Shown here: one piece after another, positions 3,459-31,812 of the stretch
Numbering within the stretch: position 1 is the first letter of the stretch
How the letters are laid out: the number at the start of each line of letters is the position of its first letter
Virus record (IMG/VR): IMGVR_UViG_3300010389_000068
Location: 1 to 32,660 of that record
Length of the DNA stretch: 32,660 nt
Direction: 5' to 3' (one strand)
Origin: a virus
Notes under the pieces: generated by a model
What the model saw: only the letters and a program-made list of their open reading frames with translations
What the model was told of the DNA's origin: nothing
Databases searched by the model: none
Made by a program: the position numbers and the translations under genes

Positions 3459-3655
3459 TGTCGGGTTTTGGCGAGGAGAGTAAATCTCCAAAAATTACTG
3501 TCAATCTCAGTGAGGTTGCCAAATTGACTAAGAAATATAAAAAACTTAAAAAGTATATGAAGTCTCCGATGTATGAGATTAAAACTTTATCGGGAACAGA
3601 GACAGTCATTACAAATCTACTCAAAGAGTTAGAATCTGACGAATCAGTTGACTAA
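3458..3655 (+). CDS. Conserved hypothetical protein, 65 aa
   Basis: A 65-aa protein with a Lys/Tyr-rich amphipathic middle (LTKKYKKLKKYMKSP) and an acidic end (ELESDESVD). No known motif. It begins on the preceding stop (TAATG), last of a coupled run. Its final codons contain the -35 element of the promoter for the riboswitch cassette, so promoter and coding sequence share DNA. Confidence 0.65.
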   Translation: MSGFGEESKSPKITVNLSEVAKLTKKYKKLKKYMKSPMYEIKTLSGTETVITNLLKELESDESVD

Positions 3656-3676
3656 ATAGCTTCGATGGTCTATACT
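3648..3676 (+). promoter_or_regulatory. Host sigma70-type promoter of the riboswitch cassette
   Basis: TTGACT (3648-3653) and TATACT (3671-3676) are separated by exactly 17 bases. The expected transcription start is near 3682-3684, which is the first base of the riboswitch P1 stem, so promoter and RNA element fit each other precisely. Confidence 0.8.
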
Positions 3677-3683
3677 AGACCTA

Positions 3684-3754
3684 CGTTCATCCCATTCGTT
3701 GTTTGCGAATAGCGAATAGGACGCAAGTAAGTCGCGGAACGGAGCGTTCATCCC
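3684..3754 (+). promoter_or_regulatory. Glutamine riboswitch, Downstream-peptide class
   Basis: The segment reads CGTTCATCC, a hairpin, then GGACGCAAGTAAGTCGC and GGAACG. This matches, from memory, the conserved core of the Downstream-peptide/glnA glutamine-binding RNAs known from marine Synechococcus, Prochlorococcus and a cyanophage. P1 is CGTTC (3684-3688) with GAACG (3737-3741). P2 is CCCATTCG (3691-3698) with CGAATAGG (3713-3720), with one C-A mismatch. The conserved GNAAGTA core is at 3723-3729. A GGAG ribosome site (3741-3744) overlaps the 3' side of P1, and a second copy of CGTTCATCCCAT ends in the start codon of the short peptide, as expected for a translational switch. Binding of glutamine by this copy is inferred. 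Confidence 0.75.
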
Positions 3755-3916
3755 ATGTTAGAGTTACTTCTCTATACAACACTTAGTTGTCAGCAATCTG
3801 AGGCATTAATGCTGAGGATTACTAAGAATCAAGACCTACCACCTCAAGTGAAGGTTGAATTAGTAGAAACCGTAAGGGAATCTACACCCGAGTGTTACTG
3901 GGACGCACACGACTGA
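3755..3916 (+). CDS. Riboswitch-controlled short peptide, 53 aa
   Basis: A 53-aa ORF that starts at ATG 3755 immediately after the riboswitch, with GGAG 10 bases upstream. It begins MLELLLYTTLSCQQSEALM, then a mixed helical body with two Val/Glu-rich turns and the end ECYWDAHD. It is the short 'downstream peptide' after which this riboswitch class is named; such peptides in marine cyanobacteria and phages have no settled function (nitrogen-status control of a host protein is one guess). It has two Cys and no clear membrane segment. First gene of a three-gene transcript ending at the 4290 terminator. Confidence 0.75.
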   Translation: MLELLLYTTLSCQQSEALMLRITKNQDLPPQVKVELVETVRESTPECYWDAHD

Positions 3917-3959
3917 AGGAACGGGTTTTAATTAACCTCAGTATTTCAGGAGACAAACA

Positions 3960-4127
3960 ATGAACACACTTACTCTCATCAAGAAGCAGATCGAAAAAGC
4001 TAACGCACTTCATGATGCACAAATCTCTCACACTGCATATCGTGGTGTAAAGTTTGAGTGCAAGCATGGCGTTGCTGACGAAGTACATGGTACATTCTGC
4101 TATCGCGGACACACTTATAACAAGTGA
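3960..4127 (+). CDS. DUF4278-like mini-protein, 55 aa
   Basis: A short ORF starting at ATG 3960 with CAGGAGA upstream at good spacing. The first 20 residues form a Lys-rich helix (MNTLTLIKKQIEKANALHDA); the rest carries two YRG units, TAYRGVKFE and FCYRGHTYNK, the signature I associate with DUF4278, a small cyanobacterial family. Function unknown. It is second in the riboswitch transcript, 43 bases after the short peptide, and the following gene starts 1 base after its stop. An overlapping longer frame starting at 4054 is a shadow of this gene. Confidence 0.7.
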   Translation: MNTLTLIKKQIEKANALHDAQISHTAYRGVKFECKHGVADEVHGTFCYRGHTYNK

Positions 4128-4128
4128 T

Positions 4129-4299
4129 ATGGAAAACTATGTCTATCATCATGATGACATGGATAAAGATAGCAGACCACCCAGTTGTTATCAACTCAAA
4201 TATAGAGGAGTAACATACTGGTCCTGCTATCGAATACACTTGCGTGAATACTTTGATCAACTCTTAGATGTTGAACCAATGTATAACAGGAGGGGTTGA
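4129..4299 (+). CDS. Second DUF4278-like mini-protein, 56 aa
   Basis: A 56-aa ORF beginning at ATG 4129, one base after the stop of the preceding DUF4278-like gene (TGATATG), so translation is probably coupled. It is acidic at the N-terminus (MENYVYHHDDMDKD), carries one YRG unit (LKYRGVTYWSCY) and ends MYNRRG. The YRG-V-x-Y pattern makes it a likely diverged relative of its neighbour. I reject the longer frame from 4054 because it would overlap most of the upstream gene. The stop codon lies inside the terminator loop. Function unknown. Confidence 0.6.
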   Translation: MENYVYHHDDMDKDSRPPSCYQLKYRGVTYWSCYRIHLREYFDQLLDVEPMYNRRG

Positions 4300-4314
4300 T
4301 ACCCCTCTTTTTTT
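4290..4314 (+). terminator. Terminator of the riboswitch cassette
   Basis: GAGGGGT (4290-4296) pairs with ACCCCTC (4301-4307) around the loop TGAT, followed by seven T (4308-4314). The stop codon of the last cassette gene lies in the loop, leaving no untranslated tail. Confidence 0.9.
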
Positions 4315-4324
4315 ATGCTATACT
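4296..4324 (+). promoter_or_regulatory. Sigma70-type promoter embedded in the terminator
   Basis: TTGATA (4296-4301) and TATACT (4319-4324) are 17 bases apart. The -35 box lies in the loop and 3' stem of the upstream terminator. The expected start is near 4330-4332, between that terminator and a second strong one. Confidence 0.6.
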
Positions 4325-4329
4325 ATAAC

Positions 4330-4377
4330 TTCCGTGTGAAGGAAGTGGAGAGGAGAGATTACTCTCCTCTTTTTTTT
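4330..4377 (+). ncRNA. Candidate 48-nt small RNA between promoter and terminator
   Basis: A transcript from the 4296-4324 promoter would begin near 4330 and stop at the 4349-4377 terminator, giving about 48 nt with no start codon. Its 5' part lies next to or within a hairpin ACTTCC (4328-4333) / GGAAGT (4341-4346); the 3' part is the terminator hairpin. Alternatively the promoter simply serves downstream genes by readthrough. Confidence 0.3.
4349..4377 (+). terminator. Second strong terminator
   Basis: A perfect 9-bp stem AGAGGAGAG (4349-4357) / CTCTCCTCT (4362-4370) with loop ATTA and a run of eight or nine T ending at 4377. Confidence 0.9.
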
Positions 4378-30598: not shown

Positions 30599-30679
30599 GC
30601 TCCAGTGGCGGAACGGTATACGCAACAGTTTTAGGCACTGTCGTCGCAAGACTTGGAAGTTCAAATCTTCTCTGGAGCA
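30599..30679 (+). tRNA. trnL-UAG: tRNA-Leu (anticodon UAG)
   Basis: Class II tRNA. Acceptor GCTCCAG (30599-30605) pairs with CTGGAGC (30672-30678). The anticodon stem is ACAGT/ACTGT with loop TTTAGGC, giving UAG. The variable arm has a GTC/GAC stem and the T arm is GGAAG-TTCAAAT-CTTCT. CCA is not encoded. It reads CUA and probably other CUN leucine codons. Confidence 0.93.
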
Positions 30680-30683
30680 CCTT

Positions 30684-30765
30684 GCGAGTGTGATGAAATT
30701 GGTAAACATACAGAACTTAAAATTCTGCGGCAGCAGCCTTGCGGGTTCAAGTCCCGCCACTCGTA
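30684..30765 (+). tRNA. trnL-UAA: tRNA-Leu (anticodon UAA)
   Basis: Class II tRNA 4 bases after the first. Acceptor GCGAGTG (30684-30690) pairs with CACTCGT (30758-30764), with one G-U pair at the end. The anticodon arm is CAGAA-CTTAAAA-TTCTG, giving UAA. The T arm is GCGGG-TTCAAGT-CCCGC. CCA is not encoded. It reads UUA/UUG leucine codons, common in this AT-rich sequence. Confidence 0.95.
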
Positions 30766-31738: not shown

Positions 31739-31812
31739 GCCCCCATAGTTGTAGTAGTTAAAACAGCCGCCTTGTAAGCGGCAGTCGCGGGTGCAAATCC
31801 TCGCTGGGGGCT
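31739..31812 (+). tRNA. trnT-UGU: tRNA-Thr (anticodon UGU)
   Basis: Acceptor GCCCCCA (31739-31745) pairs fully with TGGGGGC (31805-31811). The anticodon arm is GCCGC-CTTGTAA-GCGGC, giving UGU. The T arm GCGGG-TGCAAATC-CTCGC is one base longer than normal (8-nt loop, or a bulged T), and the variable region has four bases. CCA is not encoded. Confidence 0.85.

Follow-up and report, generated by a model that had tools for sequence, protein, structure and literature searches.

The window analysed here is a 32,660-base fragment of viral DNA (IMG/VR record IMGVR_UViG_3300010389_000068) that encodes thyX and phoH and that we read as part of a T4-like cyanophage; Kyanoviridae are among the phages having the same locus. 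The locus in question runs from a sigma-70-like promoter through a conserved leader RNA and three small open reading frames (ORF1, ORF2 and ORF3) to an intrinsic-terminator-like hairpin (Table 1). An initial annotation, made from the letters of the window, had taken it for an independently expressed cargo module controlled by a glutamine aptamer of the Downstream-peptide class, with ORF1 starting directly at the end of the aptamer. The promoter, the 53-amino-acid ORF1 and the terminator with the last stop codon in its loop all stand. The RNA, placed by the annotation at 3675-3760, has to be redrawn: the predicted fold spans 3684-3924 and has two halves, a leader at 3684-3757 and a second half at 3900-3924, at the ORF1 stop codon, and covariation places ORF1 inside the aptamer, in the loop of helix P5, and not behind it. 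Our reading, to which we give a probability of about 0.7 on comparative grounds, is that this RNA is a glutamine-I riboswitch in an interlocked double form, with mini-genes in its P2 and P5 arms, that regulates ORF2. Two tandem copies of the aptamer would have exchanged their P1 strands, so that strand a pairs with b' (the outer P1) and b with a' (helix P4, the P1 of an inner, circularly permuted unit), with P3 shared between them. P2 and P5 would be variable arms in which phages lodge mini-genes, ORF1 in P5 here and a gene that we call ORF0 in P2 elsewhere.

The same order of parts recurs in other phages. We compared the leaders of 80 viral loci found with ORF1 peptides, 56 of them distinct including the window, and their common order is CGTTCATCC as strand a, an arm that varies, GGACGCAAGTAAGTCGCGGAACGG with core 1 and b, CGTTCATCCC as a', and ATG. 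At the other end of ORF1, most relatives have TGGGACGCAMACGAC-TGA/TAA-AGGAACGG, that is, the second core with b', and GGAACG stands behind the ORF1 stop codon in 156 of 157 distinct rows. Some relatives vary around this point: L092 and L235 have ACTGAAG in place of GG behind b', L247 has A there, and L092 carries an additional CGTTCATCCC downstream of ORF1 and b', perhaps a third unit. The spacers between b' and ORF2 are 21-32 nt long, apart from those of 46-54 nt (e.g. L002, L016, L029), which carry an optional GGATC-hairpin-GAGAAGGTT stretch that appears structured.

The 40-mer at 3718-3757 matched 427 of 50,697 phage records; 421 of the matches cover at least 80% of it and 246 reach at least 99% identity, and among those listed one is a 19-base chance match. 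This conservation is far above chance. Despite the conserved leader, the ORF1 protein is less than 60% identical in 227 of 320 records. Among cyanophage-named records 420 have the core match and 458 a PhoH marker, and among Prochlorococcus-named ones 10 and 24, these being sets not matched record by record. The RNA is widespread in the T4-like cyanophages of the collection.

Table 1. Features of the locus, in positions of the window; helices and pocket strands are those of the proposed fold.
Feature	Positions	Strand	Details and basis
Strand a (CGUUC), 5' strand of outer helix P1	3684-3688	+	Partner 3919-3923
Helix P2, a hairpin in the window	3690-3721	+	3690-3699 with 3712-3721
CGCAAGUA: pocket strand and E-loop AGUA	3722-3729	+	G3723; C3724 a possible long-range partner of G3924
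P3 5' strand AGUCG	3730-3734	+	Partner 3910-3914
Helix P4	3737-3749	+	b GAACG 3737-3741, loop GAG, a' CGUUC 3745-3749
P5 5' strand UCCC	3751-3754	+	Partner 3900-3903 on the far side of ORF1
ORF1, 53 amino acids, in the predicted P5 loop	3755-3916	+	phrog_504 (5.6e-27); ORF list, PHROGs
Core 2, with the ORF1 stop codon 3914-3916 inside	3900-3917	+	Relatives' alignment, fold
Core 2: P5 3' strand GGGA; CGC	3900-3903; 3904-3906	+	Fold
Core 2: P3 3' strand CGACU; joining GAA	3910-3914; 3915-3917	+	Fold
Strand b' (GAACG) of P1; G3924 of long-range pair	3919-3924	+	b' at 3919-3923; fold
Putative expression platform	3924-3952	+	Hairpin GGUU 3924-3927 with AACC 3934-3937
ORF2 ribosome-binding site AGGAG	3948-3952	+	AGG could pair with CCU 3936-3938 instead
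ORF2, 55 amino acids, DUF4278-like, phrog_545	3960-4127	+	Pfam 19.0 bits, below cut-off 25.3
ORF3, 56 amino acids, weak DUF4278 resemblance	4129-4299	+	Pfam 16.3 bits, below cut-off 25.3
Sigma-70-like promoter TTGACT-17-TATACT	3648-3676	+	Sequence
Late-type CTAAATA, overlapping the promoter	3652-3658	+	Sequence
Inverted repeat GGTCTATACTAGACC flanking the -10 box	3667-3681	+	Window letters and relatives
Intrinsic-terminator-like hairpin	4288-4309	+	Loop contains the ORF3 stop codon TGA 4297-4299

Pairing between the two halves of the RNA

Two arrangements of the four P1-type strands were compared, a with b and a' with b', as in an ordinary tandem, or a with b' and b with a', the swapped form. 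Of 259 distinct parsed loci 227 were usable; the 32 dropped comprised 6 without strand a in reach, 4 with an insert in P4 and 22 without core 2, the last being contig ends, diverged copies and chance matches. At the one informative pair of each helix, swapped pairing is complementary in 227/227 loci for P1 (a5-b'1: C-G 217, U-A 10) and in 227/227 for P4 (b1-a'5: G-C 148, C-G 79, proportions that are not natural, one locus collection having targeted flipped b). Conventional pairing is complementary in 148/227 loci for a-b and in 147/227 for a'-b', and each unit has lost its own P1 pairing in the remaining 79 and 80, respectively; the letters of the window permit both arrangements. The changes were also placed on a 203-row tree built from ORF1 minus its final five codons. 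On it b1 changes 26 times, and a' follows in 6 of 6 supported independent pairs (sign test, p 0.031), with a and b' following in 0.7 of 6 on average. Strand a changes at a5 twice, with b' following both times, too few events for a test.

The helix that links the two halves, P3, covaries as well, with AGUCG/CGACU in 206 of the 227 loci, AGUCA/UGACU in 3 and AGUUG/CAACU in 1. The third position of P2 is paired in 226/227 loci, with all four Watson-Crick types. Where P2 is a long arm the pairing reaches over about 190 nt, and the third pair is C-G in 30 and U-A in 15 of the 45 loci; in 28 distinct long arms 118/140 cells are paired, compared with a shuffled mean of 108.7, and none of 2000 re-pairings reached the observed value.

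Gene-free relatives, with a small loop on P5, allowed the fold to be examined in contiguous natural sequences. The matches listed include at least 112 such distinct loci, 24 of which have a long P2 arm or lack a within 60 nt; strand a was found in the 88 others, and 67 of these, hand-picked for variety, were aligned. Their P1 letters are largely fixed by the scan pattern, and the weight of this alignment lies on P2, P5 and the extension of P3. RNAalifold predicted P1, P2, P4 and P5 unaided, and the full structure has 95.4% of its cells paired, compared with 32-56% when slid along the alignment. P3 is longer in one subfamily of the gene-free loci, and its eighth pair is UA in 23 sequences, AU in 15 and GC in 5, with none unpaired and 24 without letters there. 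In the window itself, the unconstrained minimum free energy (MFE) structure of 3680-3926 contains P1, P2 and P4. The free MFE fold (-68.0) is without P3 and P5, and for that reason the idea of deciding by energy alone was dropped; the swapped fold has -64.8 and the conventional one -61.4. Comparative evidence of this kind, taken from sequence, supports the fold, the position of the genes in its loops and the DUF4278-like gene behind it.

Riboswitch class, putative glutamine pocket and the gene behind the RNA

The window has no Rfam match at gathering score. With permissive settings, 3600-4350 gave 17.1 bits with the Downstream-peptide or glutamine-II family (RF01704; cut-off 33; 3681-3748) and 17.3 bits with the glnA or glutamine-I family (RF01739; cut-off 35; 3682-3745). 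The annotation had named the lack of a covariance hit as what would speak against a glutamine RNA, and on the window alone that criterion would nearly refute its claim. In our reading the score is weak because some 160 nt separate the leader from the 3' half of the aptamer, which is found at the end of ORF1. Some relatives without a gene in the RNA do pass. In phage ACG-2014f the RNA is gene-free and 93 nt long, and each of its arms is a short hairpin. RF01739 matches it at 41.1 bits and leaves 41 nt within P3, the arrangement expected from the swapped fold; its second half scores 32.1 bits with RF01704, just under the cut-off. The RF01739 cut-off was reached by 10 of another 20 gene-free loci, in five cases across the entire span, and missed by the other 10; one of the 20, L557, passes RF01704 with its second half (34.0 bits). 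Below the RF01739 cut-off are P-TIM40 (31.2 bits) and S-RSM4 (25.2, with 28.5 for RF01704), and Syn9, where gp197 and gp198 occupy the corresponding position, has no glutamine-family Rfam match. A compact single-unit form also exists, with 50.5 bits for RF01739 in L381, a contig with an ORF that we take for a phage DNA polymerase; the pattern of this form recurs in 99 viral stretches.

A profile built from 128 host-type sequences was then applied to 182 window-type constructs from which ORF1 had been removed. The median score was 22.4 bits when the halves were joined as in the swapped fold (170 scored), 15.9 with the leader only (173) and 8.65 with the second half (148); only 10 of 910 letter-shuffled constructs scored at all, with a maximum of 4.3. 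For the window the three values were 23.8, 13.8 and 10.4 bits. The letters agree with this assignment. A P1/P2/P3 three-way junction with CGUUC/GAACG, as in RF01739, is present, with P3 mismatched in a subfamily, and so are the letters of the E-loop, AGUA 3726-3729, which would pair non-canonically with GAA 3915-3917, a joining strand that reads GAA in 158/227 loci. The pseudoknot of RF01704, in which CGUUC pairs with a 3' hairpin loop (a-b), is allowed by the window and broken in 79/227 relatives. A glutamine-riboswitch-type RNA, as the annotation had proposed, appears to be present, and its class is better described as glnA/glutamine-I than as Downstream-peptide.

Likeness to glutamine-I extends to the series CGUUCA, P2, CGNAAGUA, P3 and RAAGGAACG, to the pocket letters and to the DUF4278-like gene downstream. 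The phage RNA differs in being two copies interlocked by strand exchange with a shared P3, in carrying genes in the P2, P4 or P5 loops with the ORF1 stop codon in the junction, and in its C-G rather than G-C long-range pair. With glutamine-II it shares CGC with a C-G long-range pair and a small ORF close by, but the proposed fold has no 3' pseudoknot hairpin and the partner of P1 is about 230 nt away.

Papers are cited here by PMC number, each for the excerpts available. The ligand of the glutamine riboswitch is bordered by the first two pairs of P1, by one G of the joining strand and by a long-range pair (PMC6698751). The outer pocket of the window would be C3684-G3923, G3685-C3922, G3723 and C3724-G3924. 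Host-type sequences have G-C as the outer long-range pair in 125 of 128 cases, with G-U in 2 and C-G in one, L381. Phage loci have C-G in 328 of 331 and C-A in 3, the core 1 C being fixed by most scan patterns and its partner free; phage and host-type pairs differ on both sides. In permuted order, the inner pocket would have the letters C3745-G3741, G3746-C3740, G3905 and C3906-G3742, and it is supported by double changes of its long-range pair, to G-C in L554 and L658, G-U in L566 and U-A in L607. Of 11 rows in which the inner pair came out unpaired, eight were set aside as P5 parsing errors (L560, L597, L610, L646, L659, L564, L603, L653). From these letters we infer that glutamine binds the outer pocket and probably the inner one too.

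The gene that consistently follows the aptamer is not ORF1, as the annotation had it, but one of ORF2 type with a YRG motif, and the gene-free loci keep it without ORF1. The two mini-genes described as DUF4278-like are there, ORF2 and ORF3, and their resemblance to that family stays below the Pfam cut-off. ORF2 shares 71% identity with the gene that follows the RNA in ACG-2014f, and the gene at its place in P-TIM40 passes the DUF4278 (PF14105) cut-off with 25.8 bits. A YRG-motif gene, of DUF4278 type, stands behind the RNA in 63/63 compact loci (74 distinct, 11 of them too short), in 83/83 gene-free loci with enough sequence among the matches listed and in 201/203 ORF1-type loci, compared with 117/3920 random positions; in host-type loci the count is 38/119. 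In hosts, glutamine aptamers occur chiefly with DUF4278 genes, and in IF17, an inhibitor of glutamine synthetase, this domain spans the N-terminal part (PMC6316151). The spacer before ORF2 contains CCU, UCC or CCC in 211/216 loci, compared with 61% of shuffled spacers.

Two side observations concern other RNAs and hosts. A manA RNA (RF01745, 142-189 bits) occurs on the glutamine-RNA locus in L539, L546, L563, L570, L607 and L613, within about 450 bases of the glutamine RNA in L539, L563, L570 and L607. Host-type glnA patterns were found in genomes titled SAR86, SAR116, Pelagibacteraceae and other proteobacteria (L321, L322, L325, L328, L349 and others); glutamine riboswitches are called restricted to cyanobacteria in the excerpt of PMC6316151, and Pseudomonadota are named for them in that of PMC12452182.

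Genes in the loops and transcription signals

ORF1 is an insert, which the gene-free loci do without. The codons at its end, TGG GAC GCA CAC GAC TGA, overlap core 2. In 112 distinct 53-codon ORF1s, codons 2-47 have entropies of 0.90, 0.43 and 1.28 at the first, second and third positions, the third being the most variable, and in the last five codons all positions except one are nearly fixed, which suggests a double use of these codons, for the RNA and for the protein. The tail reads WDAND or WDAHD in 202/236 proteins. A cluster of four loci (L103, L159, L156, L193) has a different protein, ending in DAND, and a second cluster, of 11, has yet another, whose hhalign probability of 94.6 against ORF1 suggests a distant relative. 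The AlphaFold model of ORF1 consists of two helices, with a predicted local distance difference test score (pLDDT) of 80.7, and pointed to no function. In the ORF1 and ORF0 families alike, a stretch near the N terminus is hydrophobic, and there are two cysteines, in most cases 35-36 apart. We considered a conserved GGAG as the ORF1 ribosome-binding site in the P4 loop and dropped the idea, as the loop varies (GAG, GAGC, GAAC, GTTC, GATT).

Genes are found in other loops too. P2 is an arm of about 200 nt in 45/227 relatives, and in 42 of them it is filled by ORF0, of 65-75 amino acids, which starts at most 12 nt from a and stops at most 5 nt from core 1; in some of these loci the ORF0 start codon can pair with its own stop region (UCUCAUG with CAUGAGA). 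In four loci (L217, L303, L290, L306) an ORF of 192 amino acids lies between b and a', in the P4 loop, which puts 775 nt between core 1 and core 2; in these loci strand a reads CGTTTA and b' reads GAAACG, with complementarity retained. In L217, the one searched, this ORF (2256-2834, flanking strands kept) is homing-endonuclease-like by PHROGs (phrog_314, 9.4e-9), and Pfam named no family for it at cut-off. Group I introns carry homing endonuclease genes in their loops. The phage RNA is like them in having genes lodged in peripheral loops of a conserved fold, and unlike them in that the fold is that of a ligand sensor; ribozyme activity or splicing was neither looked for nor seen. The word cargo, used in the annotation for the whole unit, fits the loops of the RNA better.

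Promoter-like sites such as the one in front of the RNA number 16 over the 4 kb, with 10.2 expected, so the site alone is weak evidence. It is overlapped by CTAAATA, which we take to be the late cyanophage promoter motif and which is exact in 102 of 200 distinct stretches upstream of relatives' RNA. The inverted repeat around the -10 box has arms of at least 5 bp in 153 of these 200 stretches, compared with 48 of 200 when shuffled; the arms vary from phage to phage and keep their complementarity. The repeat may be an operator or, for a transcript that starts from the overlapping CTAAATA, a hairpin at its 5' end. Downstream, another promoter-like site overlaps the terminator of ORF3 (within 4296-4372) and a second terminator-like hairpin follows at 4347-4372; the short stretch between the two could be a small RNA. 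The window also has three tRNA genes, at 30599-30765 and 31739-31812.

A proposed switch and its alternatives

In the mechanism that we propose, glutamine would close the outer pocket, and the closed, ligand-bound fold would free the ORF2 ribosome-binding site by way of the C-rich strand 3936-3938. It would also hold the start of ORF1 (in P5) and its stop (in P3 and the junction) in helices. Conversely, ribosomes stopping at the ORF1 stop codon would cover core 2 and keep the aptamer open, making ORF1 translation and a closed sensor mutually exclusive, with low glutamine favouring ORF1 and high glutamine ORF2. The hairpin 3924-3937 and the long-range pair both need G3924 and may compete for it. 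Ligand binding and the direction of control are inferred, the ON direction coming from host precedent only: the host glutamine riboswitch is an ON switch (PMC6698751), and both glutamine classes activate expression with glutamine (PMC6316151). That the two interlocked pockets, the second permuted, form a steep two-way switch, turning the DUF4278-like gene on and the loop genes off when bound and the reverse when unbound, is a tentative proposal, somewhat doubtful as it stands.

Several observations weigh against the interlocked riboswitch and its mechanism. The search patterns and parsing fixed most P1 and P4 letters, so that each of these helices offers a single informative pair, and the collection that targeted flipped b bears on the same counts. 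Another P4 pair, at its far end, is unpaired (C-C) in two loci under the register chosen; P3 has a C-A mismatch in 12/227 loci and G-A in one, and two of its positions are often mismatched in gene-free loci (43/67 and 28/44 rows), where RNAalifold left P3 out of the 67-sequence prediction and placed two other pairs there. Long-arm P2 is weak past the third pair, the fourth being formed in 20/45 loci, and the joining strand is AAA in 69/227. The long-range pairs are unpaired in 3/331 loci each, the outer one in L092, L235 and L247 and the inner one in L144, L606 and L623. As to class, the contiguous leader of the window scores only about 17 bits, and the window construct without ORF1, at 23.8 bits with the host profile, lies below all host members (at least 25.5, median 43.4), which marks the phage form as divergent. 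Five gene-free loci (L550, L562, L563, L570, L617) pass RF01739 on the second half alone, P-SSM2, which carries ORF1, does so with its leader half alone (35.1 bits), and L148, of ORF1 type and the sole glutamine match among 20 loci of one Rfam scan, passes RF01704 with its leader alone (36.2 bits). Finally, the ORF1 ribosome-binding site is not conserved among relatives, which makes the ORF1 toggle the weakest step of the mechanism.

The half-only passes are what conventional pairing would allow, with a-b and a'-b' as self-contained, pseudo-cooperative aptamers, the second carrying ORF1 in a P2-like arm. Tandem glutamine riboswitches are known, as 157 doublets and 4 triplets (PMC9481103; see also PMC2864571), and they resemble the phage RNA in having two glutamine-type units side by side in one leader. 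In the excerpt of PMC9481103, however, they are taken as separate aptamers, and the phage P1s pair across units: the conventional pairs are broken in 79 and 80 of 227 loci and the swapped varying pairs never, a' tracks b and not b' on the tree, and P3 links both halves and covaries. We consider two separate aptamers unlikely as the basic arrangement, although unflipped loci, the window among them, may adopt that pairing as an alternative state. Split or swapped strands have a precedent in glutamine-II, in the pairwise reassociation within the crystal and in a two-piece form that works (PMC6698751). Improbable to much the same degree, if a shade more so, is a fold that has lost or changed its glutamine sensing and serves translation coupling or the stability of the mini-gene mRNA; the leader is indeed more conserved than the ORF1 protein, and the loops hold differing genes, the homing-endonuclease-like one included. 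This idea sits poorly with the retention of the letters around the published pocket, with a long-range pair that closes the pocket and differs on both sides between host-type and phage loci, and with a YRG gene that stays behind the RNA throughout.

The annotation's own model, a Downstream-peptide (glutamine-II) aptamer confined to the leader (3683-3748) and controlling ORF1 as its downstream peptide, draws on the RF01704 scores of the window and of L148 and on the start of ORF1 directly 3' of the leader. We reject it as very unlikely, because covariation backs a-b' and not a-b, because RF01739 fits the entire RNA in ACG-2014f and in five of 20 gene-free loci, and because the YRG gene is kept without ORF1; the window, moreover, is below the RF01704 cut-off. 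Least probable of all, with hardly any weight left to it, is conservation at the DNA level only, such as a homing-endonuclease target or a recombination hot spot: the core is very highly conserved and an endonuclease-like ORF sits in P4 of L217 (with a 192-amino-acid ORF in four loci), yet compensatory changes over 170-240 nt and across ORFs are unexpected for a DNA site.

Glutamine RNAs in cyanophages have already been published (PMC9964418, PMC9602691), as has a glutamine riboswitch in a methylophage tmRNA locus (PMC9004378). Among the literature matches listed, with subscription papers and supplements outside their scope, there was no report of a strand-swapped riboswitch pair or of genes inside riboswitch aptamer loops. 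Covariance models may miss such RNAs because half of the aptamer lies behind an ORF. If the interlocked riboswitch is real, it would be both a strand-swapped, double-pocket riboswitch and a riboswitch with whole genes in its loops, and it would give a context to the gene families phrog_504, 545, 6471 and 13397. The link to the nitrogen state of the host, which the initial annotation had drawn, is plausible, and through the RNA one could test how marine phages sense and steer the nitrogen metabolism of their hosts.

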